From NCBI RefSeq assembly GCF_001625215.2, contig NC_030382.2:47395364-47459363 (forward strand): DNA of 64,000 nt, written 5' to 3'. The notes beneath the pieces were generated by a model. That model was given only the letters and a program-made list of their open reading frames with translations. It ran no database searches and was not told the DNA's origin. Below, in pieces: positions 4,144 through 62,536 of this stretch. A program made the position numbers and the translations under genes. The stretch is from Daucus carota subsp. sativus. Taxonomy: Eukaryota; Streptophyta; Magnoliopsida; Apiales; Apiaceae. Numbering within the stretch: position 1 is the first letter of the stretch; each line of letters opens with the position of its first letter.

Positions 4144-5142
4144 CGATACAATGAATACCTCATGGCATATATATTCTTACTTAGCTAATTATGTGCCTTA
4201 TATTACTTAATTAAAGTTAAAGGAATGAACTGAACTGTTTTGCTATTTTTTCATCTTCATTCTTTAGTAATTTTTAATGCACTTGATACCTATGACCACT
4301 CCTTTATAAGATTGCATGTCTCCAATTTACTTGATTACCTTGAAGGATATGCTGCATTGGGAAAAACTTTTTTATCAAAACATTATCAGATACTTGAGTT
4401 CGAATTATGTTTTTTATATGGTCAATCACAGATATTTATATATTCAGATTTCAGAAATCACAATCCTCTCTCACTTTGCCTTGAATCATCAACCTCCCGT
4501 CATTGAGTGGAGAGGGGTATCTGCTAGATTCCAAGGGTAGAAGACATGGAAAATCAATTTTCAGCATAAATTGCTTGGACCAGACAAAAGCTTTTTCTGT
4601 AAGATTGTTGTGAGTGACGTTCAGAACTAGGTAGGCTTTTCTTCATGTACAGTTACATTAAGCTATGTACTCTTACATGCTTACTGTACTTGAGACTCTT
4701 GGCTATCTTTAAAGTTTGGCGATTGTGGTCTGGGTAAAATGATAAGATCCACTTTTATTACATGAAGTGCAGATTGTTGGTGGTAAAGAAGGTTTATTTT
4801 ATATATTTTTTAATCTAGCGCAATTTAAACTAGTTTTTGATTTTGTAGTTCAGTTTTAACTAATTAAAAATCCTTAATTATGCTATGTATTATGTTGTTT
4901 CAGCGTTGTAATCCTCGCAAGGATCCCTGAAATATGGGGCTAACATAATTACAGTCCTGGAATTCAAAAGTTCCAAAGAGAATATTTTATTTCACAGCCC
5001 CAACTTATACTTCAAAAATAGTAGAAATACTTTTTAGGACAAGACCCCGCATTCTCCGGTTATTACAAATTGTGGTTTCGTCATCTGGTTTCTGTTTTAT
5101 GTGTGCATTTGTATGGTTTCGTCATCTGGTTTGTGTTTACAG

Positions 5143-5353
5143 GTCGTTTGACTTTTTGACACACACTTCTAAGTCCTTTGACTGTATAGTTAAAATTATT
5201 ATTTTTAAAATTTTCTTATTTTGAATTATAATATATGATTAACATTATAATTCAGGAAAAAAAATTCAAAAATAATAATTTTAACTAAACGGTCAAATAA
5301 CTTAGAAGTGTGTGTTAAAAAGTTAAGTGACCTTTATTTGAAAACGGAGGGAG
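5143..5353. mobile_element. Stowaway-type MITE (Tc1/mariner-like), left end eroded
   Basis: The right end is aaaacggagggag followed by ta. The two arms form a long imperfect palindrome: gtcgtttgactttttgacac on the left, gtgttaaaaagttaagtgac on the right, with an AT-rich loop. The left terminal ctccctccg motif is missing. It belongs to the same family as the element at 20865-21098. Confidence 0.8.
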
Positions 5354-10228: not shown

Positions 10229-10716
10229 GAGCCTGAGATAGCCCTATCAAACACAAACACAACAAAGATATAATCTTTCTCGAAATGCAAGAACCCAAAC
10301 AAGAAAAGCTCGAGACAGCTTATAAATCACAAAAACAGACAAAGATACAATCTTTTTCTCAAAATGCAAGTTCCCAAAACAACGAAAAGCCTGAGAAACC
10401 CTTCTGAATAAAACTCAACAAATATAAAACCTTTTTGTCAAAATACAAGAACCCAAAACATAGAAAAACCTGAGAAAGCCCTCTGAATCACAAACACAGC
10501 AAAGATACAATCTTTTTCTCTAAATTTCTCTAAATGCAAGTTCCCAAACAAAAAAAAGCCTGAGACACAGCTCTATTAATCACAAACACAACAAAGATAC
10601 AATCTTTTTCTCGAAATGCAAGTACCCAAACAAAGAAAAGCCTGAGATAAGCTCTACAAATCAAATGCACAGCAAAGCTATGATCTTTTTCTCAGAATGC
10701 TTGAACCCAGAACAAA
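10229..10716 (-). repeat. Six-unit ~80-bp tandem array in the 5' UTR intron of the RING-CH gene
   Basis: Units begin near 10229, 10306, 10385, 10463, 10551 and 10635, with a partial seventh. Each contains, read on the plus strand, a variant of cctgagac, then aatcacaaacacaacaaaga, tacaatctttttctc and gaaatgcaag(t/a)(t/a)ccca. Read on the gene strand, most units carry a form of tctcag|gct preceded by a pyrimidine-rich tract, the same sequence that forms the probable 3' splice site at 10233. The array fills most of the leader intron. Confidence 0.9.
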
Positions 10717-10802
10717 TAAAAAAGAAATAATTACACCCAAATAAAGAAAGAGGATAAAACAAGAAACAAGAAGGGAGATTAAATTTATAATCGATGAAAG
10801 TA

Positions 10803-19953: not shown

Positions 19954-20864
19954 GGGGAGTTGCAATATAATAAAGTAATGCTACTTTTGAAAATTTGGAG
20001 TAGAAAGTGTGTGTTAGTGACTCTGCTTGCACCGGCACTCTCATCTTATTGTCTTATTGATCACATAATTTCTCATCTATCAAATTTTGCAAAAGTTGAA
20101 CCGCACTAATTTATTTATTTATTCATTCATGTTTTATTTTGATATGCACGAGAATTATTATTGCTCAAATCAGAACTAAAGTAGTACTGGTATTGTTTCT
20201 CAACTTGTGTGGAATGTGGATAGCATGAATTTTAATAATCCTCGCTTTACAACTTTAATGTTGTTTTCCATCTTTTGTGGATAATACAGGTAAAAGTTTT
20301 GGAATCAAAAATCTCCTTGGGAGACTCAGTTTGATATGTCATCCGTCACTCCATTCTCCCACTTACGAGAATTTCTGCAATTTTGGATTAGCAAAATGGA
20401 TGCAAGGGATGCATGCACCATATTTATGAACAAATTTCATGTTGAAATATATGTAAAAAATTCAATATTTCATCTTAACAAGAACTCCTACTATTTTCGG
20501 AAAAAAAACACGGGTTTTACTTTTACACAAATATAAAACTAGCTAGCTAGGGACGGCCAAGATAAATTATTGATATTATTCTTAGTATATTTAATATTTA
20601 TTTAAAATATAATTTATCTTATTAATTATATAATAGAGTTTATTAATATACTTTATATTGTTCATAATAATATTTATGAAGATTAATATTTAATTTAAAC
20701 AGAGAATCATTTTTAAATCATTATTATTATATTTATTGATTCTCTTCTAATTATTCTAAGATTCAAATTTATATGATTTAGATAACCAACCAACCAAGTA
20801 TAACTTATAATAAGTTAATATCATAATAATATAAATATTAATACAAATTTTCCATAACATAATA

Positions 20865-21098
20865 CTCCCTCTGTTTTTTTATATATGACGTTTGACTTTT
20901 TGGCACACACTTTTAAGTGCTTTGACCGGGTAGTTAAAAGTATTATTTTTGAATTTTTTTTTTCTGAATAAAAATATGTAATCAAAATTTTAATTCACAA
21001 AAAAAATCAGTTAAAAATAATAAGTTTTACTACCCGGTCAACCCACCTAAAGACACGTGCACAAGTCAAAAGTGTCATATAAAAAAAAACAGAGGGAG
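20865..21098. mobile_element. Stowaway-type MITE, palindromic
   Basis: Starts ctccctctgttttttt, ends aaaaaaacagagggag, with TA on each side. The arms (acgtttgactttttggcaca; agtgctttgaccgggtagtt) match each other in inverted order around an AT-rich loop. Related to 5143-5353. Confidence 0.88.
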
Positions 21099-21375
21099 TA
21101 ATATTTTCAATTAGCTAGTCCTTTTATATTCATGGTCAAACTAGTAATCATTTGAAATATTTTTAAGCGGCAGTTCAAACAAGCATAACACAGGTGCTGC
21201 GTGCATGTGTGGTCAATGTTTGCCACAATGTTATAGCACCTTCCTAAGTACTAGTAATTTACTTATGTAGTTTGTGAGAAAAGTTAGTGTTTGATGATGA
21301 ACTCAAGGCCTACAATAATTCAACAGAAACGTTTCTTCCAATAGTTGTTGCCTTCTCCCCTTGAATAAAAAACTA

Positions 21376-21610
21376 CTCCCTCCGTCCCACAATACATGTC
21401 GCTTTGACTTTTTTCACGTAATTTGAGGTGCAAATAAAACATATGTCTATATATTATTTTTCAAATTTTTTTTTTCTGAATAAAAATATGGATGTTATAC
21501 TTTTATTCAGAAAAAAAAAATTTGAAAAATAATGTATAGAAGTATGTTTTATTTGCACATCAAATTACGTGCAAAAAGTCAAAAGGACATGTATTGTGGG
21601 ACGGAGGGAG
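21376..21610. mobile_element. Stowaway-type MITE, near-perfect long hairpin
   Basis: Starts ctccctccgtcccacaatac, ends gtattgtgggacggagggag, TA on each side. The arms, about 105 bp each, are almost fully complementary around gaataaaaatatggatgtta, so the transcript could fold into one long hairpin. It is the best preserved element in the window and probably young. Confidence 0.92.
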
Positions 21611-22788
21611 TAATAAATAATTTTCCGAAACATTCAGCTGCGTACAAAAATTCTTCAACTCAACAAGATCGTCTAACCTTTTTCTTAATTACACGCCTAC
21701 AAATATATATTGTGTGCAGCCGTACGTATATATGTGAGTGTTAACTGTAAGCACTAAGCATTCTCCCGAAATTCACAAGTCACATGCATATGTAAACTTT
21801 CGGTTACGTGTTACAAATCTGGCTCCAACCAGAAAAACTGGGAAGTGGTTGTGTAGCTTTCATAGTTTTTTTACGTCTCGCAGACTCAAGGCTTGTCTTA
21901 AGTACTCGACAACAAGTTTTAGCTGCAAAAAGGATGTATTTGTGTCTGCAATACATTAAGATCTGCCTCTCTTTTTATTTCAGGAAGCTTAACCGCATAA
22001 AACTCAATATTTAGACACTCGTGTCTTTATATATTCCAAAAGTTTGAAATCTGGGATATGTCGATATTGACAGAATTAGGATGTTAAAAAATTCGGGCCA
22101 AAATGATTTAATTCATAAGCGTTTATGTTAATAAGGTTTTTTTTATTTAACATGGACTGAAAGTACTGATTTCTTAGAAATACGGTAATTGTATATAAGT
22201 TGTAATGTTGGTTGAAAACAATTGTTTTTCACGTATTGCACTGTATTTTTGAAAATAAATACATAACTCCGATATTTCTGAAGAAACGCACTTTTTAAAA
22301 CATAGAAGAATTCTTTAAGGCAAATGTTTAATACTTCTACAAAGAGAGTAGAGGACTTTATTGATGCTAGTATCGTAAACAATTGTAGTTATCATGTTAA
22401 TGGTGGATAAAATAAATGTTTGTAGGCTCGAAACCTAAAGTTAATGGTTCTTTTTTTTGTTCTTCTGTTGAGGGTTTGGTATTGTAAAGTTAGCACATTA
22501 AAAACTTTAACTTGCTCCAGAGCTTGTTTGAGTGGATTTGGACTTGAAACAAGATTTGCATTGTAATGTACATGTCAATCCATTAATCTAAAATTGACAA
22601 TTATATTTACTTCTGATCTTGTCTGTTAAACTTGAATGGTTATCTACTCATACTCACAATCTGCTTTCCAGAACCAAGAATACACATGACCTCAGTATTT
22701 TCATCCATTTTATCTCATGGAAAGTGATGAACATACGTGTATCAATTGTCCACTAAACCCATGTCCCATATATAAGTGCATGTCTCCC

Positions 22789-22796: not shown

Positions 22797-22837
22797 AGCC
22801 AACATGCTGGTTCTATTCAGCAGTTGAAGTAAGAAAG

Positions 22838-24291
22838 ATGGAGGCTTTGAGTGTGGACACAGTAGAGAGCCAAAACAACATCTCAGCTGCAGAGGAAAAA
22901 TGCCAGGGCACTAGCTTCCCCAGGACTTGCTTCAATGGACTAAATGCTCTCTCAGGTTTTTTTCCCTGTCTTTATTTCGCCTCGTAAATATTCAAATTTC
23001 ATTCATGTGCATGATATACTGATATAGTTCTTGTTTCATCAGGTGTAGGGATATTATCAATTCCATATGCACTTTCTCAAGGAGGGTGGCTATCCTTAAT
23101 CATCCTTTTCGTCATAGCACTTCTGTGTTTTTATACCGGACTGCTTCTGCGTCGCTGTATGGATTCCAATCCTATCATCAAAACTTACCCTGATATTGGA
23201 GAAGTGGCCTTTGGAAGCACCGGAAGGGCTCTGATATCAACTTTTATGTATCTTGAATTGTACTTTGTTGCCGTAGAGTTTCTCATTTTAGAAGGTGATA
23301 ACTTACATAAGCTATTTCCGGATGTAAATTTTCACATTGCTGGAATAAGTATTCCAGGAAAGCAAGGCTTTGTTTTACTAACAGCTTTATTAGTATTGCC
23401 TACAACCTGGCTAAGGAGTCTGGGATTGTTGGCTTATATTTCTGCTGGGGGTGTGTTGGCTTCTATTGTTCTGGTTTTCTCTGTTTTCTGGGTGGGTGCA
23501 TTTGATGGCGTGGGATTCGACGAAAAAGGAAGCCTTTGGAATTGGAATGGCCTGGCTACTGCTATAAGCCTGTATACCTTTTGTTATTGTGGACATGCAG
23601 TGTTTCCCACCCTCTGCAATTCAATGAAAAATCGCGCTCAATTTCCCAAGGTAACGTACTTTTTTCTTTTTACCTGTTACATTAATTCGAATCATATGCA
23701 ACATCATTGGATGAGATGAACCATACACAACTTTAAATTTGACTTATGATTATGTGACTCCCACTGCAGGTGCTATTGGTCTGTTTTGTTCTAAGCACCA
23801 TTAGTTATGGTTCAATGGCAGTTCTAGGCTACTTGATGTATGATGGAAATTTGATGTCTCAAGTGACTCTGAATCTTCCCACTAAAAAAATAAGTACAAA
23901 AGTTGCAATATATACGACGCTCATCAACCCCATCACCAAGTACGCCATCATTGTGTCTCCGATTAACACAGCTATTGAGGCCACATTTCCTTTACAAAAA
24001 AGCCGTTCAATAAGCCTCATCATCAGGACAGTTGTGGTGTGCAGTACTGTTCTGGTGGCACTAGCCATACCATTTTTCGGGTATGTGATGGCGTTTACTG
24101 GTGCATTTTTAGGCACAAGTGTTTCGATGTTGTTCCCGTCCATCTTCTACCTGAAGATCAACAAAGCTGCTAGGAAGTTTGGGGTTGAGTTGGTGATCAT
24201 CATCTTGATATTAGTGGTGGGGGCATCAGTAGCTGTAGTGGGTACTTATACTTCTTTGTGTGATATTGCTAGGCATGCACATTCAAATTAA
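22838..24291 (+). CDS. AVT1-type vacuolar amino acid transporter, copy A
   Basis: Three exons: 22838-22955, 23043-23650, 23770-24291; 1248 nt, 415 residues, GT-AG introns in phase. The sequence SFPRTCFNGLNALSGVGILS at the exon 1/2 junction, GGWLSLIILF, LLLRRCMD, TYPDIGEVAFG and FYLKINKAARKFG are typical of the AAAP/APC superfamily AVT1 group (AVT1I/J-like, with a short N terminus). The family has about 11 membrane spans and exports or imports neutral amino acids across the vacuolar membrane using the proton gradient. Substrate cannot be read from sequence. It is one half of a tandem pair with the gene at 27621; I count roughly 30 residue differences by eye, so about 92 percent identity. Confidence 0.93.
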
Positions 24292-25558
24292 ATAATGTTG
24301 ATTGGTTTTACCTGATATTGTTGATTCTCAAAACTTTTGAAACTGATTAGTGGACTGGAGGCAGCTTATAAGAACAGTTGAAACTTTACAAGATCATAGC
24401 ATGGCTTCATATTTGTTTGAAAAAAAATCTTGAAACATGTACACAATCCGTATTATATTTAACCCCAAAAATGGATTTGATAGAGCTGATATTCCTGTCG
24501 AATCTGTATTCACTTTTGACCGTCCAGATAATTATGCTACCTGAAGCTGCAGCCTCAACTAGGATCACATCTCCTCTAAAATCTTCAATATCTAAATTAA
24601 TCTTCAATATCTTGTAACAATAAATCTCCGGTGTTTCTTTGTCATCTAGACTGTAAGGTCTGAATTGTGCAACGAATTTACGTTATGGAGTTGTTCCTGT
24701 TAGATTAAGCACCAAGTTGTGCAGTATGAGATTTACTGTACTAACTAAACTTAGAAGTACAAATATAAGTACTTCAGGAACAGACCATCACATTCATCAC
24801 TAGAAAGTCGATATGAATAATAATCAAGAAAGAAGTCCATATACAGTCAGTTACCTTCTGAATCATTAAATAGCTAGTTTAACTTGTGTTTAGTTGATTA
24901 AATACCATAAAAATTAAAATCACAAATCAAGCATAGGCATTAGGCATAATAACTACAGAAACAAACTCCCCTAGTCAAACGACAAAATCTGGAAAAGTGG
25001 TTAAAGTTTAAATTTTCTGAAATTGCAGCAGAGTATACAGGCAAAACCAATAAAGAAAAACAAAATCTTGAATTAAAAATTGGAGGGTTAAACTTCTCGA
25101 GAGCCAAGTCATGACTTAACAGCCTATGTGATTGAAGAGATGACGAGTGGCGTTGAGGTTGCTCTAAAAATACATTTCAAAAGTTGAGGTCCAAGGACAA
25201 ACCACAACTTAACAGCCTATGTGATGACTTTAGCCTTTAGTTCATGAAATTGTAGTGTTTCTGATCTTTTATGATTGTGAATTTATTTCAGAAACAGATC
25301 AAACATAGCCACGTGAACACAATTATTTCGAGTAGTAAATGTGGCGCAAGACTTATTGGTGAGAAACAGGACTTGATAAGATCTAGGGGATTGAGAAAAT
25401 ATCTCTGTAAAATAAAATACTTCTTCTATGTTCTAATTCTGAGAGCCCTGTCTGCAGATAAGTTACAAGCTATATACCCCTGCATTCATATAAAACCTGT
25501 AAAGGCTTCAACAGATCATTCAAAGATTAATACTACAAATCAAGTTCGAGACAGCGAT
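24292..25558. other. Intergenic region between AVT1 copy A and RNase copy A
   Basis: Contains the transporter 3' flank; the segment ccccaaaaatggatttgata at about 24463 reappears downstream of copy B. A promoter for the RNase lies at its end. No other gene is evident. Confidence 0.6.
25489..25495 (+). promoter_or_regulatory. TATA box of RNase copy A
   Basis: tataaaa, 64-70 bp before the ATG at 25559, a suitable distance for a short leader. Confidence 0.55.
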
Positions 25559-27001
25559 ATGAAAGCTAATAGATCAGTGTTTATTACACTATTGGCAATG
25601 CACTGTCTGTCAGCTGTAGGTGCTGCGCGAAATCCAGATTTCTTTTACTTCATCCAGCAGGTTGGTAATCTTCATGTATATGTGTACAAATCAACTAGCT
25701 CTGTAATTTCTTAGTTCGACAGTTACTTACTTTGTTGATGCTTCTTGATATGAAGTGGCCAGGATCTGTTTTCAACACCAATCGAAACTCTTGTTACCCA
25801 ACAACAGGAAAACCTGCAGCAGACTTTGTTATTGCTGGAGTCCAGCCTTATTATATTGATGGCTCTTTTCCATCGAACTGCACTACGAAGATCCCCTACA
25901 ATCACTCTAAGGTAAGCTTTATGTTATGTTTTACGTTTATCTTTTTAAATCTTTTAATGGGACATGAGCAAAATTGAGACGGACATTATTTGAAATCTGT
26001 TGCATATTGACTCAGTTGGATCCCAACTTGTCTATTAGTTGTAGTAACATTTAAATGTTACACTACTGCAACTTATGAACTTGTACTAGTCTGTTTCTTG
26101 GTTTACATCTGGCTTGTTCTTTCATAGGTTAGCCTTTAGTATTTTGTATGGTCATGTACTTGTACTACTGAATTTTCAAGATGCACGGCGAAAATTGCTG
26201 TGCTCAGATCTCTATAAAACAATAGGCAGGGATAACTGTAGTGTACAAGCGGGGGTCAATGTACTAGTCCAGAATGAGTGGATTGTAGATTCTACATCAC
26301 CGTTTGATAATTTGATTCCGTTTTTTTTTACTTGATACAAGTCCTTAATTAAATATGAATTTTGCAAATGAACAGATCAGGGACCTAATAAGCAGAATGC
26401 AGAAGAGTTGGCCATCACTATCTTGCCCAAGCAACAATGGCTTCTCACTATGGTCTCTTGAGTGGAAACAACATGGCACGTGCTCAGAGTCTGTTCTCGA
26501 CCAACATACTTACTTCCAATATGCTTTGAACCTCAAGGATAAAGTGAAGCTCCTCCAAAACCTTCGTAATGCAGGTAGCCTTCTAATAATATCAGCATCA
26601 ATTGAAAAACATCAAGTCATATAGGCATTTTAACAGTATCTTCTATTGGCAAGGATTCAATTATTTCAATAGCTACCTATACATATGCAACTAATTTGAG
26701 AGCACATCTTTCTTTGAACTTATTTTATGGTTGCTAAAAAAGAACAAGAACAATAATGAAGTAGAAATTTGTTACAGGGATCAAACCAGATGGGAAATTA
26801 TATAGCATTGATAGCGTGATGGAAGCTATAAGAGCAGAGATTGGATACTATCCTGGGGTGAAATGCAATTCTGATAAATCTGGACAGATGCAGCTTCATC
26901 AAATATATATTTGTGTGGACACTTCAGCAACAAGATTTATTGAATGTCCTGGACTACCAAATTTCAGATGCACTTCCACCATCAAGTTTGCAACCTTCTA
27001 G
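25559..27001 (+). CDS. RNase T2 family protein lacking catalytic residues (probable pseudoenzyme)
   Basis: Four exons: 25559-25660, 25756-25911, 26376-26574, 26778-27001; 681 nt, 226 residues, splice sites intact. A signal peptide (about residues 1-25, ending ...AVGAARN) directs it to the secretory pathway. It aligns residue for residue with the enzyme at 32846. In the CAS I region the family motif FGIHGLWP reads FVIAGVQP (residues 58-65), so the catalytic His is Ala and the base-contacting Trp is Gln. In CAS II, HEWTKHGTC reads LEWKQHGTC (114-122): the first His and the Lys are lost, Glu115 and His119 remain. Two N-terminal Cys are also replaced. Catalysis by the T2 mechanism is therefore not expected. 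Catalytically dead T2 homologues are known as plant storage or defence-related proteins; which role applies here is unknown. The acceptor of exon 2 has a weak pyrimidine tract. Confidence 0.9.
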
Positions 27002-27620
27002 GCTCTAGGCACGATGTTTATCTGTGCTTCTTGAGTATAAGATCCATTATCATTTATAAGACAAAACACGGGCACCTCTCACTTAGTTTTGTACTTATTC
27101 GCAGTCTTCATGCGAATGCTGCTATAACTCATAAAGAAAAATGGTAGATGCTATGAACTTCTATATGTTTTGCATCCGTAAATGTATTTTGGTTTCCATG
27201 TTCATCTTTTAAATTTTTGAATGTGTAAAGTGTATTAATAAACGAGCCGATTTGGAGTTTGAGTTTGAAAGGCAAAGGCTCCATGATTATTATTATTAAA
27301 TAAAAAATATTATATGATTACAAAATCCTAATCACTATATAAGTCTTTTCATATTATAATAATGATTATAAAAATTCTACTAATATTGAAGTTTTTAATT
27401 ATAAAATCCTAACCACTGTATAAAAATTATTTTAGCATGTTTTTAGGAGTATGAATAAATCAAGAGGCGGTAGAGTCAGTTTAGGAAACCACTTCAGTGC
27501 TAGTTTGTTGTGTTTCAGTTTCTTCTTCTTGATCTTGTTTTACCATTTATTGATGTAACGTTGATTATAATAAATTAGTGGTAGAGGCAAGAGTTCTTTT
27601 CAGCAGCTGAAGTAAGAAAG
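27002..27620. other. Junction of the tandem duplication and promoter of AVT1 copy B
   Basis: Up to about 27283 this is the 3' flank of RNase copy A, matched by 29801-30093 downstream. About 27284-27593 is unique, and homology to the copy A leader starts near 27594. A tataataa-like site near 27566 could serve as the TATA box of copy B. Confidence 0.65.
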
Positions 27621-29111
27621 ATGGAGGCTTTGAGTGTGGACTCGGTAGAGAGCCAAAACAATATCTCAGCTGCTGAAGAAAATTGCCAGGGCACTAGCTT
27701 CACCAGGACTTGCTTTAATGGACTAAATGCTCTCACAGGTTTCTTTTCGTGTCTTTAATTCGCCTCGTAAATTTTCAAATTTAATTCATGTGCATGATAT
27801 AGTTCTTGTTTCATCAGGTGTAGGGATATTATCAATTCCATATGCACTTTCTCAAGGAGGGTGGCTATCCTTAATCATCCTTTTCGTCATAGCACTTCTG
27901 TGTTTTTATACCGGACTGCTTCTGCGTCGCTGTATGGATTTAAATCCTACTATTAAAACTTACCCTGATATCGGACAAGTGGCCTTTGGAAGCACAGGAA
28001 GGGCTCTGATATCAACTTTTATGTATCTTGAATTGTACTTTGTTGCCGTAGAGTTTCTGATTTTAGAAGGTGATAACTTACATAAGCTATTTCCGGATGT
28101 AAATTTTCACATTGCTGGAATAAGTATTCCAGGAAAACAAGGCTTTGTTTTACTAGCAGCATTATTAGTATTGCCTACAACCTGGCTAAGGAATTTGGGA
28201 TTGTTGGCTTATATTTCTGCTAGTGGTGTATTGGCTTCTATTGTTCTGGTATGTTCTGTTTTCTGGGTTGGTGCATTTGATGGCGTGGGATTCGACGAAA
28301 AAGGAAGCCTTTGGAACTGGAATGGCCTGGCTACTGCTATAAGCCTGTATACCTTTTGTTATTGTGGACATGCAGTGTTTCCCACCCTCTGCAATTCAAT
28401 GAAAAATCGCGCTCAATTTCCCAAGGTAACATTTTTTTTTCTTTTTACCTGTTACATTAATTAGAATCATACGCGACATCATTGCATGAGATGAACCAGA
28501 TGCAGCTAAGTTATACATGAGCACTACAACTTTAAATTTGATTTGTGATAATGTCGTCGTTTTCTTCCTTTCCATGACTCCGGCTGCAGGTGCTGTTGGT
28601 CTGTTTTGTTCTAAGCACCATTTGTTATGGTTCAATGGCTGTTCTAGGCTACTTGATGTATGATGGAAGTTTGATGTCTCAAGTGACTCTGAATCTTCCC
28701 ACTAAAAAGTTAAGCTCAAAAGATGCAATATATATGACGCTCATGAACCCCATCACCAAGTATGCCATTATTGTGTCTCCGATTAACACAGCTATTGAAG
28801 CCACATTTCCTTTACTAAAAAGACGTTCAATAAGTCTCTTTATCAGGACAGTTATAGTGTGCAGCACTGTTCTAGTGGCACTAACCATACCATTTTTCGG
28901 GTTTGTCATGGCATTGATTGGTGCATTTACAGGTACAAGTGTTTCGATGTTGTTCCCGTCCATATTCTACCTGAAGATCAACAAAGCTGCTAGGAAGTTT
29001 GGGGTTGAGTTGGTGATCATTATCTTGATAGTAATGATGGGGGCATCAGTAGCTGTAGTGGGTACCTATACTTCTTTGCGTGATATTGCTAGACATGCAC
29101 ATTCAAATTAA
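27621..29111 (+). CDS. AVT1-type vacuolar amino acid transporter, copy B
   Basis: Three exons of exactly the same lengths as copy A: 27621-27738, 27818-28425, 28590-29111; 415 residues. Splice sites and reading frame are intact and substitutions relative to copy A are mostly conservative or in loops (for example KVAIYTTLIN versus KDAIYMTLMN), consistent with a working transporter. Intron 1 is slightly shorter and intron 2 slightly longer than in copy A. Homology upstream stops only about 27 bp before the ATG, so the promoter differs from that of copy A. Confidence 0.93.
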
Positions 29112-29529
29112 GTATTGTTGATTGGTTTGCCTGAAATTGTTGATTCAAAATCATTTGAGACTGATTAGTGGAGGCAGCATATAAGAACAGTTGAAACTTT
29201 ACAAGATCATAGCATGGCTTCTTATTTGTTTGAAAAAGAGTGTAGGAGGAAGTCAGAGGTTAAGTTCTCTGTGATGTGTGATAACGAGAATGATTGTAGT
29301 TAATCTATCTTTGAAGAAACAAGTTTCTCCAATTGAATTTTGTTTAAATTTAATCCAAGCTAAGTATAGCATACACAATACGAGATTGCATGAAGATTGT
29401 TCATCACAGAAGAGAGTACATAATACATGATCAAGATTCAAGCAACTAGAAATGAAACCTTCCATGCCCTTGGGGAGTGCTTTCTCGTGCTCAGTCAGTA
29501 ATCCCTTATTTGACCCAAAAATGGATTTG

Positions 29530-30093
29530 ATAGAGCTGAGCCTTCTAATAATATCAGCATCAATTGGAAACCTTCAAGTCGTCAAGGCATTTTAACAGTA
29601 TCTTCTATTGTCAAGGATTAAATTATTTCAGTCGCTACCTATACATATACAACTAATTTGATCTCTTCCTGAGAGCTCATCTTTCTTTGAACTTGTTTTA
29701 TGGTTGCTAAAAAAGAACAAGAACAATTATGAAGTAGAAATTTGTTAGAGGGATCAAACCAGATGGGAAATTATATAGCATTGATAGCGTGATGGAAGTT
29801 GTCAAGGCTCTAGGAATGTTTATCTGTGCTTCTTGAGTATAAGATCGATTGTCATTTATACGACAGAGCGAGGGAACCTCTCAGTTAGTTTTGTACTTAT
29901 TAGCAGTCTTCATGCGAATGCTGCTATAACTCAAAAAGAAAAATGGTAGATGCTATGTACTATATGTTGCAACTTGCATCCATAATGTATTTTGGTTTCC
30001 ATGTTCATCTTTTAAAATTTTAAAAATGTGAAGTGTATTAATAAAGAAGCCGATTTGGAGTTTGTGTTTTAAAGGCAAAGGATCCATGAATAC
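29530..30093 (+). pseudogene. Remnant of a duplicated RNase T2 gene
   Basis: From 29540 this matches intron 3, part of exon 4 and the 3' flank of the RNase at 25559. The junction at about 29538 joins sequence like 24491 (gatttgatagagctga) to intron 3 sequence like 26577 (gccttctaataatatcagca), so exons 1-3 were deleted. In exon 4 about 180 bp are missing after gatagcgtgatggaag, and the intron 3 acceptor reads gttagag instead of gttacag. The 3' flank is collinear to about 30093. It cannot encode an RNase. It is a host-gene relic that proves the transporter and RNase were duplicated together. Confidence 0.9.
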
Positions 30094-32845: not shown

Positions 32846-34005
32846 ATGGGATCCAGTACTAGAAGCCTGGCAATCAAACTCCTTATGATACAATGCCTAA
32901 CTGTTGTGTGTTTCTCTCAGGATTTTGATTTCTTCTACTTCGTTCAGCAGGTAACCACTTTTTTTTCATCACCAACATGATTTTATTTACTTGTCTTACG
33001 GGGGTGTATTGGATTGGGATTTTAAAGCATTTTTTTGCATTCATAAAATCCGAACTTGTCTAATGTTTATAGCTGATGGTTTTGTTGGTGCAGTGGCCTG
33101 GATCGTACTGCGATTTGAAACAAAGTTGTTGTTATCCGAGCACAGGGAAGCCGGCTTCAGATTTCGGGATTCATGGATTGTGGCCTAATTATCAGGACGG
33201 CTCTTACCCTCAGAACTGTGATCCCGATGCCCCCTTGGATCCTTCCAAGGTATTCATCTCGATTTATTACACTCATCACCTTGTCTTATGCTGTTGTTTT
33301 TGTCTTGATGTTTTCTTCATATGCATGGCTGTTGAAAAAGTAAGATCCCGATATTTGTTCCTTAAATTTAGACTTAATTGTGTTATCGTTGCTATTACTG
33401 TATATTCTGTTTTAGAATCTTAACATTTGTTGCCAAATTGCATCATAATCGTTAATTGTTTTAATTTTATAATTTGGAGAATTCGCTGACTGTTATTTTG
33501 GAATTCTTTAATTTTTGTATTTTGAATAACACAATTTTTAACTTGTTTGTATAACGAATTCATTATGTTTTGATACGTAAAGATCTCGGATTTGAAAGGC
33601 AATATGCAAAAGGAGTGGCCAACGCTGGCCTGCCCGAGTGGCGATGGCTTGACGTTTTGGGGTCACGAATGGACTAAACACGGAACCTGCTCCGAGTCTG
33701 TTCTAGATCAGCACGACTACTTTGCGACGACACTCCACCTCAAGGATCAAGTGAACCTTCTGCAGAGCCTCGAAAGTGCAGGAATTCACCCAGATGGCGG
33801 ATCCTACAGCTTGGAAAGCATAAAGAGTGCTATCCAACAAGGAACTGGTTATACCCCTTTTATAGAGTGCAATGTCGATGCGTCTGGCAATAGTCAGTTG
33901 TACCAGGTTTATCTGTGTCTTGATAATTCTGCCTCCAAACTTATCGAGTGCCCTGTATTTCCTCATGGCAAATGTGGCGCCCAGATCCAGTTTCCAACTT
34001 TTTAA
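32846..34005 (+). CDS. S-like ribonuclease T2 (RNS1-type), catalytically complete
   Basis: Three exons: 32846-32950, 33094-33249, 33583-34005; 684 nt, 227 residues. An N-terminal signal peptide (about 1-24, ...LLMIQCLTVVCFS) is followed by the mature start QDFDFFYFVQQWPGSYC. CAS I is FGIHGLWPNY (His62) and CAS II is HEWTKHGTC (His115, Glu116, Lys119, His120); the Cys pattern is that of S-like RNases. The enzyme cleaves RNA through 2',3'-cyclic phosphates in the apoplast, ER or vacuole and in Arabidopsis its relatives are induced by phosphate limitation, senescence or wounding. Compared with the homologue at 25559, the third intron is absent (the GAAAGTGCAGGAATTC site reads through), so an intron was lost here or gained there. 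Two introns are short; the first contains a small transposon piece. Confidence 0.95.
32997..33053. mobile_element. 57-bp transposon fragment with 8-bp flanking repeats in RNase intron 1
   Basis: ggggtgtattggattgggat and the following 33 bp match the left end of the element at 31469. The insert is bracketed by acttgtct at 32989-32996 and 33054-33061, looking like a target-site duplication around a very short copy. Confidence 0.75.
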
Positions 34006-58683: not shown

Positions 58684-60158
58684 ATGGATTGTATCGGTCT
58701 TGTAGCTGATAAGTTCTGCATTCTACTAACGCGTGAAGACACTGTGGCTAATAAATTGGTAAAATATCACTATGACGGTATTAAAGCTTTTTAATTTTTG
58801 TTGGGTTTTGCTTTTTTATGATATTGAATGTATTGTTTATAATGTTACAGAATGTTCCCATTAAATTCTGCTCAAAGTACAGTAATTTGTTACATGATGA
58901 AATGGAACTCCAATTGCGTAATGGCTATATCTTACCTGTTCAAATTGATTTAGTGAGTTCAGAAATGATGGGCCTTCTCTGTTTTTTCAAGCATTTTGAC
59001 TTGAAAGGTGGGGAGTATATGATTTTTGAGTACTTTGGACGTTTTAAGTTCAATGTTTATATAATTGGTAGTGATGGTTCGGAGATTCGATACCCGGAAA
59101 TGAACAATTGTCTACCTGCAATAGGTTAGTATGTCATATGTATAAAGTTTTAGAATTCTGTTATTCCTATAATTATTACCTAGACTAACAATTAGAGGCT
59201 ATATTCATGTAATTTATAGTTACAATAGGCGATGGTGGTTGGCGTTTTGTCAAATTTCGTGTTGAGGGTGATGGGGTCATCGATGAAATTGTAAGTTACG
59301 TTCATTCATTAATGGACCTTTATTAGAAACTGTACTAATATATGTATGTTTTGTTGAATTTAGGATCCTCCTGTTGGGTTCATTGAGCGTTGTGGTTTTG
59401 CTTTGCCTGATCGTATAATATTTGTTTTGAGTAATGGAAAGAAGTTTGCTGGTTCATATAATCGTGAGTCTGGCTGTTTCAGTGGTTTGAGTTCTATGTT
59501 TCGTATATTAGGAATAGAGAATTTGAAAGGTGTGAGCAAGTTCTTATTTACTTATGATGGGACAGAAGTTGTTTCAATCTGTGCATTTGATTCAGAAAAC
59601 TATGAGATTGTGTTCCCAGGAACACCCCTTGATTTTGGTAATGAAAATCAGAATTTAGAGATGACCTCTTTTATAATAATTTTACTTTCAAATGACCACA
59701 GAATTTACATACCTTCAATTGTTGTTTTATGCAGATGCTGATGGTTATGATCCTATAATTGGCAAATTTTTCAGGGTGACGGCGGAAAGTAAGCATATGT
59801 TTGACGACTCCTTCCGAGTTGTAAGTAATAGCCGTCTTGTACAATGTTTAGTAACACAATTTACGGCAACCAATTTGGGAACTGATTGTTTTCTGTCCAG
59901 GACATTTCTAATGAGTTTGATGACCTGTGTTTGGAGTGGCCGGCCTGCCATTGTATTAATGTATATTCTGGTAGTGCATGTTGGAGGCTTCTAATACGCC
60001 GAAGGGAAGACTCCCATTGTTCCACAATTGTAGATGGTTGGCAAAAGTTTCGTGATGATCTGGGGCTGAAAATTGGCCATGTTTGTGTATTCCAATGCCC
60101 TTACAAATCTTATGACCAGTTTAGGATTCGAGTTTGGATGAATAATGAAGACTACTAA
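58684..60158 (+). CDS. REM-type B3 domain protein, tandem copy 1
   Basis: Six exons: 58684-58758, 58851-59124, 59220-59290, 59364-59637, 59735-59820, 59901-60158; 1038 nt, 345 residues, all GT-AG and in phase. Three B3-like regions are seen: one starting about residue 28 (FCSKYSNLLHDEMELQLRNG ... FNVYIIGSDGSEIRYP), a middle one (RCGFALPDRIIFVLSNGKKF ... DSENYEIVFPGTP) and a C-terminal one (WRLLIRRREDSH ... DGWQKFRDDLGLKIGHVCVF). This layout is that of the REM subfamily of plant B3 DNA-binding proteins, many of which act in reproductive meristems. Exon lengths and phases match the next gene nearly exactly. Confidence 0.88.
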
Positions 60159-60969
60159 ATATTGTAGTTGTTTTCTGTATTATGCCTTTATCAGAATTGT
60201 AGTATTTGTGTTGTTTTTTCTTTTGGAACGAATGACTTGTGTTGAGTGCGGATGTTTTGAGCTTGCTTTATTATGTATTTATTCTGAATTTGGGATTTAT
60301 GCTGAATGTATTGTGGTTGTTGATTAACAGACATTGATTATTTTTGTTTGGATTGTATGTTATGATCTGTGTTTTTGGGTGATGTTTCTTTTTATTCTTA
60401 AATTAATAACTTCAAGGTTTCTGTACAAAATGGTCAGAATTTATTTGCACTATTATTGATAATTTTTTTGCCAGAAATTTTTTTTTATGTTATAAGTTTT
60501 GAGTTCAATATTTCTTTAAATACGAAACTGAAAAAAAAATTAATTTGCAAAAAACAATTTTTTGTATTGTACCAATTTTTTTATTGTGTCGTAAACCTAT
60601 ATAATGTAATAATATTTAAAAAGTACAGGAGAGGGGCGTTAAAAATTTTACTAACTGTGCTATAATTCAGCTTGCTACCTAAATAAAGCTGAAATGTAAT
60701 TAATTAGGAGTTAATTCTTTGTTGGATGGTGTAATGGCAGAGGTATTAAAAGGTACTGAGGCTGCTATAATTCTGCTTGCTTCTTGATTGTTCTCTATCT
60801 GTTACATAAAAGTCCTTCTCTTTCTTCACGGTTCTGAGCTTCACTTAGGGTTTTTCAGTTTCTTGCTCTGAAGGTCTCATTAAAGCTGTAAACCCTTTGT
60901 TTGTTGGTTTACTTCTATTTTTTTTGCATCTCACTGAAACAATATTTTCATTATTAATCTTGTATAGGT
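60159..60969. other. Spacer between B3 copies 1 and 2
   Basis: 3' flank of copy 1 and leader of copy 2. The copy 2 start is preceded by ttgtatag|gt just before ATG, suggesting a 5' UTR intron as in copy 1. No other feature seen. Confidence 0.6.
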
Positions 60970-62536
60970 ATGGAGTCATCAGGTCTCATCTTGCCAAAGT
61001 TCATCAAGTTCCTCAGCAATGCTGAAACGAAGTTCGATTACCTGGTTAGTTTCAGTTTTATACATATTATTGTAGTTTCAGTTCTATTACCTTTGTTGGA
61101 TTTTTGTTATTAATGGTCATTTTTCAGGAATTGCCGTATGGAATAGTCGACCAATATGGTGGTCGCTTGCAAGAATGCTTCATGCTGAAGTTCCGCAATG
61201 GTTATGAAATTCCTGTTAACCTGAACGACGATGATTGGACCATCTATGGAGTTTCCAATTTGTATGAGGATTTTGGTTTGAATGGGGGTGAAATGCTGGT
61301 TTTTGAGTTCAACGGAAAATCTGATTTCAATGTGTACGTAATTGGTAGTGATCTTACCGAAATCCAATATCCTAACATAGTTCATCATATGCAGAAGAAT
61401 CGTCCTAAGCTTGGTAAGATTTAGTTTCTTTATTTACGTTTTTAATAACTCTGCTTTTAAGTTCAATATGTTCCTTTCTCTACATCAATGATAATCTTGA
61501 ATATATGTTACCATTCATTAAGTTTTACAATTTTTTCTTAGTGTCTGTTCGCAATGGTGGTTTGAAGTTTGTAACATTTGTGCATGAGGAGAATCCTATG
61601 TCAGATGAGATTGTAAGTCAACTGAAATAGGGTTTTTTTGAGAAGATTTTTTCAATACAAATATATTTGATTTAACTGTCTCTTTGAGACAATTTGGATA
61701 CTATATTTGTTAAGTTTATGTGGTGTAGGAGGCTCCTTCTTCCTTTAGAAGATCCACTCCAATGATTCGAGGTTATCAAAATTTCTTGTTCAGTAATGGG
61801 AAGAAGATTGAAGGGGGCTACCATCATAATACTGGAATGTTTCATGGTTTTAAGAAGTTCTGCCTGATATTGGGTATTGAAGATTTCAGGAACTATAATC
61901 TTGTTTTGTTTACTTATGAGCATGATAAGACAACCAAAGTCTCAGTTTTTGACGACGAATTTGTTGAGGTTATGTTCCCTGGAAGCCCCATATCAGCTGG
62001 TATATGCTGTACTGTGACCTGCATGATTTTGTACTTTTTGTCTTCTATATGTTTGAATTTCCCACTGATATTTAAATTTTTTTCCTTAGGCTTCAACTCT
62101 CATAACCCAACTGTTTTTGGAAGGATTGAGATTCTTGTGAAGCCTTTTCACATGTACAAATATTCTTATGGGGTGGTAGGTGTTTTTTATGACAGATTTT
62201 GATATAGCTTCCATTTTGTGTGGAATTTGGAGATGCTACTAAACTGTAATATAATGCATCTTGATAACCTTGATTCAGGACATTTCTACTGCCTATGAGA
62301 GAATAACTGCATACTGGACGCGTCGAGATCACATAACAGCTTATCTGGGTGACAGAGCTTGGAAGCTTGAAGTAAAAGCTCGAAAGCCCAATCGCCAGCG
62401 CAAAACCATTCTGGAAGGTTGGATACAATTGCGAGAAGATCTTGGCTTGGCTGTTGGGGATGTGTTGATTCTGGAATGTCCAACAAACTCTCGTCATCAT
62501 TTCTCTCTACAGGTTATCAAACAGGCAGTTGCATAG
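60970..62536 (+). CDS. REM-type B3 domain protein, tandem copy 2
   Basis: Six exons: 60970-61044, 61128-61413, 61542-61612, 61729-61999, 62090-62175, 62279-62536; 1047 nt, 348 residues. Exons 1, 3, 5 and 6 have the same lengths as in copy 1 (75, 71, 86, 258 nt). The start MESSGLILPKFIKFLSNAET and LKFRNGYEIPVNLNDDDWTI, FNVYVIGSDLTEIQYP, then RGYQNFLFSNGKKIEGGYHH and WKLEVKARKPN ... LREDLGLAVGDVLILECP mark the three B3-like regions. Sequence divergence from copy 1 is considerable, so the duplication is not recent. Confidence 0.9.

Follow-up and report, generated by a model that had tools for sequence, protein, structure and literature searches.

The gene at positions 25559–27001 of the 64,000-nucleotide stretch of DNA analysed here (the window) is probably a class I RNase T2 pseudoenzyme, a protein that does not cut RNA and has been kept for a role independent of catalysis. 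We infer that its product is a folded, secreted protein on which purifying selection has acted. In the history we propose, the gene would stem from an old duplication within class I that long predates the tandem duplication of a transporter and an RNase at this locus. It would have lost the residues for catalysis and phosphate binding, some of those in each base pocket, and one disulfide, and would have kept its reading frame, its splice sites, a signal-like N-terminus and the cysteines of four other disulfides. This T2 homologue is of interest because its catalytic site, residues of its base pockets and an entire disulfide have been lost together, and because an active-type paralogue lies about 6 kb away, the two forming a within-genome pair for testing the fold without catalysis.

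The T2 homologue lies on the forward strand in four exons that give 226 codons and a stop in an open frame, and all three introns (95, 464 and 203 bp) have GT-AG borders. Pfam assigns it to a single family, Ribonuclease_T2 (PF00445; 2.1e-49, 168.7 bits against a cut-off of 26), across profile positions 2–188 of 188. The exon structure and the family match together confirm an earlier reading of the sequence alone (hereafter the sequence-only reading) that the gene is full length with intact frame and splice sites. The signal peptide is putative, a judgement made by eye. Among solved structures, the nearest phmmer matches are 1iyb (E 4.6e-81), 1dix (1e-74) and 1vcz (7.7e-65), far ahead of MC1, CalsepRRP and the S-RNases. 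These are RNase NW, RNase LE and RNase NT/NGR3, which are counted as class I enzymes; the best solved matches of the T2 homologue are hence class I rather than class II or III. The mature protein is 56.4% identical to NW, 53.4% to LE, 50.0% to NT and 53.9% to the neighbouring gene product from 32846. Its alignment with NW is free of gaps, that with LE has a single gap of one residue, and that with NT has three gaps, one of two residues and two of one residue. Given 50%–56% identity to three solved enzymes and so few gaps, the fold is probably retained. Three introns are the commonest arrangement in class I according to the available text of PMC5598434, which calls it pattern I-D, and I-C where the third intron is absent, a loss that has occurred repeatedly. 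The T2 homologue fits pattern I-D, its introns being equated with positions 2, 5 and 9 of that study by their order. Class III S-RNases, in the same text, mostly have one intron, at position 5; the three introns of the T2 homologue and the far weaker matches of 1ioo and 1iqq place it outside that group. Pattern searches with the T2 homologue gave 126 matches in viral contigs and 70 in bacterial and archaeal genomes, with no relatives among either set. Weak phmmer matches of a helix region of the T2 fold (residues about 138–172) to designed PPR and alpha-solenoid proteins are probably due to chance, since no stretch passes by itself and ordinary T2 enzymes align over this segment.

Table 1. Positions in the window of the T2 homologue, its active-type paralogue and the duplicated transporter and RNase unit.
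Feature	Position	Strand	Remarks
Transporter copy 1, first unit, upstream half	22838..24291	+	Aa_trans family, 415 aa; exons 22838-22955, 23043-23650, 23770-24291
TATA-like site, T2 homologue	25489..25494	+	70 bp 5' of ATG; motif match only
Exon 1, T2 homologue	25559..25660	+	ATG, GT donor; signal-like N-terminus and first strand
Exon 2, T2 homologue	25756..25911	+	CAS I FVIAGVQP (active copy FGIHGLWP); lost Cys pair; sequons N75-C-T, N83-H-S
Exon 3, T2 homologue	26376..26574	+	CAS II WSLEWKQHGTC (active copy WGHEWTKHGTC)
Exon 4, T2 homologue	26778..27001	+	Stop TAG; four C-terminal Cys retained
AATAAA poly(A)-like signal, T2 homologue	27237..27242	+	Motif match only
Transporter copy 2, second unit	27621..29111	+	415 aa; exons 27621-27738, 27818-28425, 28590-29111
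Relic of second non-catalytic RNase copy, behind transporter copy 2	29540..30089	+	From blastn, tblastn and segment alignments
Exon 1, active-type class I RNase T2 paralogue	32846..32950	+	
Exon 2, active-type paralogue	33094..33249	+	FGIHGLWP
Exon 3, active-type paralogue	33583..34005	+	WGHEWTKHGTC; without the third intron of the non-catalytic copy

Alignment with the gene at 32846 bears out the active-site changes that had been read by eye, namely His62 to Ala61, Trp65 to Gln64, His115 to Leu114 and Lys119 to Gln118, the retention of Glu116/115 and His120/119, and the loss of two N-terminal cysteines (Cys41 to Phe40 and Cys47 to Ser46). In RNase LE numbering the changes are H39A, W42Q, H92L and K96Q, with E93 and H97 kept, and four more losses, absent from the sequence-only reading, fall on base-binding residues (Y17V, N44Y, F89L and Y172H). 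With residue roles taken from the sections of PMC9762611 at hand, pocket B1 has lost W42 and N44, has Phe for Y50 and keeps Y8 and Y175, and pocket B2 has lost Y17, F89 and Y172, has Ser for T78 and keeps Q12 and L79; His92 and Lys96 contact phosphate. Table 2 of the same paper gives Cys18-Cys24 as a disulfide in 1DIX, 1IYB and 1VD1. Compared with NW (1iyb), LE (1dix) and NT (1vcz), the T2 homologue therefore lacks H39, W42, H92, K96, several base-pocket residues and both partners of Cys18-Cys24, and it is basic rather than acidic; its other eight cysteines, the four disulfide pairs that it has in common with these enzymes, are all kept. The alteration thus extends well past the catalytic pair, and no cysteine is left without a partner. 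The CAS I and CAS II catalytic residues that mark a T2 enzyme are incomplete, and, judged from these residues, RNase activity is very unlikely. H39A, W42Q, H92L and K96Q, together with the base-pocket losses, support the earlier proposal of a non-catalytic protein.

Changes in the T2 homologue are numerous and unevenly placed. It differs at 29 of the 105 columns that are identical in the active paralogue, NW, LE and NT, and at 38 of the 97 variable columns it has a residue absent from all four enzymes. Catalytic and base-contact positions are changed at 8/14 fixed sites, versus 21/91 for other fixed sites (p = 0.020, Fisher test); the list holds 16 positions from the PMC9762611 sections, of which 14 are fixed in LE, NW, NT and the active paralogue and two vary, and it leaves out Pro43 and Leu90, which that paper describes as hydrogen-bond contacts. 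An alternative list of 14 positions gives 7/12 fixed sites changed versus 22/93 others (p = 0.018). As a control, NT compared with the active paralogue, NW and LE has changed at 2/16 such positions and at 27/118 others.

In neutral simulations started from the T2 homologue gene itself, 29 of the 105 fixed positions had changed once drift reached about 0.15 substitutions per site; at that point the frame had no stop in 1.9% of 3000 runs, and in none of them when indels at 0.1 per substitution were counted. Neutrality along the whole branch (0.5–0.8 substitutions per site) would change 66–81 of the 105 positions, against 29 observed. This pattern of change is incompatible with long neutral decay, and long frame-preserving evolution of the gene is well supported. 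Over 200 mature codons, pairwise dN/dS against the neighbour is 0.346/1.62 (ML), 0.328/1.46 (LWL85) and 0.354/2.58 (NG86), a mean ratio of 0.14–0.22 (LWL85 bootstrap 95% interval 0.13–0.34, from the 262 of 300 replicates that computed), which is a rough value because dS is near saturation and both lineages are averaged. The T2 homologue has also evolved faster than the active copy, with 47 versus 16 unique changes when NW is the outgroup, and 47/12, 41/18 and 20/9 with LE, NT and MC1, respectively; a fast lineage also fits relaxed constraint. The sequence-only reading had argued for retention rather than simple decay. The open frame despite 29/105 changes (about 2% of drift runs), the dN/dS of 0.14–0.22 and the loss of one whole disulfide support this view; a recent end of selection is an alternative weighed below.

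The active-type paralogue at 32846 encodes 227 aa, is 71.6% identical to NW, and has two introns, the last one being missing (pattern I-C). The absence of a third intron at 32846–34005 agrees with the repeated intron loss in class I described in PMC5598434, as far as its available text goes. When five fixed topologies for the placement of the T2 homologue within class I were compared, the AU test rejected none of the five (p 0.106–0.65); the arrangement that makes it the sister of the active neighbour scored lowest in the AU test and was left out of the bp-RELL set (0.030).

Comparison of the window with itself by blastn pairs 22810–24424 with 27593–29237 in two pieces (94% and 91% identity) and parts of 26577–27286 with 29539–30089. 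A unit made up of an amino-acid transporter and a non-catalytic RNase is present twice. Both transporter copies are intact, with dN 0.036–0.037 and dS 0.12–0.14 between them. Behind the second transporter, all that is left of the RNase is part of intron 3, the initial ~47 nt of exon 4 and the 3' region. Exons 1–3 and most of exon 4 are missing, which we interpret as sequence lost by deletion (some 2.1 kb and 0.17 kb). Relative to the intact copy, the relic differs by 7.5% in intron 3 (15/199) and 8.8% in the 3' region (25/283), and its exon-4 piece is identical over the 46 nt that align. In this short, post hoc comparison, the chance of no differences in 47 nt is 1%–3% at the intron 3 and 3' rates and 5% if the rate of the transporter 3' part (6.3%) is used. 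The sequence-only reading spoke of a duplicated unit with a transporter: the unit itself is real by blastn, but of its second RNase just a relic survives, and the active gene at 32846 stands apart from the unit. Judged from dS, the T2 homologue and the active gene separated long before the unit was duplicated, their split being some tenfold older or more, with the larger dS near saturation.

The T2 homologue fits a known kind of protein. Non-catalytic T2 proteins arise repeatedly in plants: in the accessible part of PMC5598434, plant T2 sequences without activity or without the His number 91, and 67 of these, spread over nine clades, are class I. Like the non-catalytic class I members, the T2 homologue has lost catalytic His in an intact gene and has moved from an acidic to a basic pI; other such clades, for instance one of 14 Caryophyllales sequences whose expression and function are virtually unknown according to that paper, share His loss and basic pI with it by description. 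Several losses combined had been put forward as its special trait, but this is not unique: in the excerpts of PMC5520845, rice OsRNS4 and OsRNS5, both represented by full-length cDNAs, likewise lack two catalytic His, and OsRNS5 also has its Glu replaced; OsRNS4 is strongly induced by zinc shortage. The T2 homologue therefore fits plant non-catalytic T2 proteins with several losses, as these two sources describe them. By the residue numbers of PMC5520845, the rice proteins, like the T2 homologue, are without the His of CAS I, but in CAS II the rice proteins lack the last His and the T2 homologue the first; unlike OsRNS5 the T2 homologue keeps the Glu, and unlike both it keeps the last His, going by their description. 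The two rice proteins would belong to the grass class I clade of PMC5598434. Eucommia, from the portion of PMC7994793 consulted, has T2 proteins without the CAS I or without the CAS II motif. CalsepRRP (1jy5), a storage protein of Calystegia sepium, is an inactive T2 protein with its CAS I His replaced (FTIKGLWP), as in the T2 homologue, but it has lost one His only, by a single His-to-Lys change with which it is reported to be inactive (PMC5520845 excerpts), keeps the CAS I Trp, is class II in the PMC5598434 text, and matches the T2 homologue at E 3e-23, far behind the class I enzymes. GMP of Panax ginseng, a T2 vegetative storage protein without RNase activity, is class III and keeps its catalytic His (same text). 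The exact set of losses seen here (the His of CAS I, the first His and the Lys of CAS II, residues in each of the two pockets, and one disulfide) is absent from the described cases compared, as these partial sources present them.

The mature T2 homologue has a pI of 8.87, versus 4.62 for the neighbour, 4.82 for NW, 4.57 for LE and 5.03 for NT, and it carries two sequons (N75 and N83), neither of which occurs in those four proteins. Within class I, seven of the nine shifts to basic pI coincide with loss of an active His (PMC5598434, available text). Under a drift null, the net charge of +6 is nonetheless reached in 10.2% of 3000 runs without constraint, and in 2.8% of 1500 runs that let only the changed sites vary. 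Since drift alone produces such a charge in 3%–10% of runs, we rejected the basic pI as proof of a new function and treat the shift as mild evidence for one. Nitrogen content, considered as a mark of storage, was uninformative (side-chain N per residue 0.358, equal to NT at 0.358 and below MC1 at 0.397).

Three other explanations have to be weighed against a retained pseudoenzyme. The gene might be a young pseudogene, in which catalysis was lost with other constraint still in force and selection ended only recently, with stops and frameshifts yet to appear. Both the fast protein evolution of the T2 homologue and the reduction of the sister RNase in the second unit to a relic point this way, and drift of 0.02–0.05 substitutions per site leaves the frame without a stop in 53%–22% of runs (18%–1.3% counting indels). 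However, so short a neutral time yields only about 5–11 of the 29 changes at fixed positions, so that a long frame-preserving phase is needed anyway, and the gene still has every splice site as well as a TATA-like and a poly(A)-like site. We regard this history as unlikely, though far from negligible. Quite improbable, in our view, is a protein that works through RNA, either binding it without cutting or acting as a decoy in competition with active T2 enzymes. The basic mature protein and the kept positions His97, Glu93, Gln12 and Leu79 would suit it, but residues of B1 (Trp42, Asn44) and B2 (Tyr17, Phe89, Tyr172) have been replaced, as have the phosphate-contacting His92 and Lys96 (roles as given in the PMC9762611 sections). 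The RNA-binding role offered by the sequence-only reading loses ground accordingly, because both base pockets are altered too. To residual or altered catalysis, with the retained Glu93 and His97 supporting slow cleavage or some other hydrolysis, we give almost no credence: the Lys has been replaced, as have the other two catalytic His, and CalsepRRP is reported to be inactive after one replacement.

If the T2 homologue is a retained pseudoenzyme, its role may be that of a secreted amino-acid store or bulk protective protein that accumulates under stress or in particular tissues, a tentative guess by analogy with the storage or protective role suggested for the inactive rice RNases and for CalsepRRP. 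Within the same reading, a defence protein, basic and located at the cell surface, is a rather more doubtful guess. More specific, and on balance unlikely, is a secreted T2 pseudoenzyme from which catalysis, both pockets and one disulfide have been removed with the rest under selection, leaving a basic scaffold, possibly N-glycosylated, whose new role in binding proteins or the cell wall would have arisen independently of the grass and Caryophyllales clades.

The window has a G+C content of 33.8% and contains plant-type genes. P1BS-like motifs (GNATATNC) number 20 in the window against 16.6 expected, which is no excess. Three near-palindromic stretches (21374–21612, 5138–5336 and 20856–21107) are 77%–91% identical to their own reverse complement, the latter two being related to each other, and are possibly fold-back or MITE-type elements. 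At 10230–10722 lies a diverged tandem repeat array with 76%–82% identity between shifted copies. Tandem ORFs at 58785–62202 look alike by eye, and one has a sub-threshold B3 match, so that this may be a B3/REM-like gene cluster.
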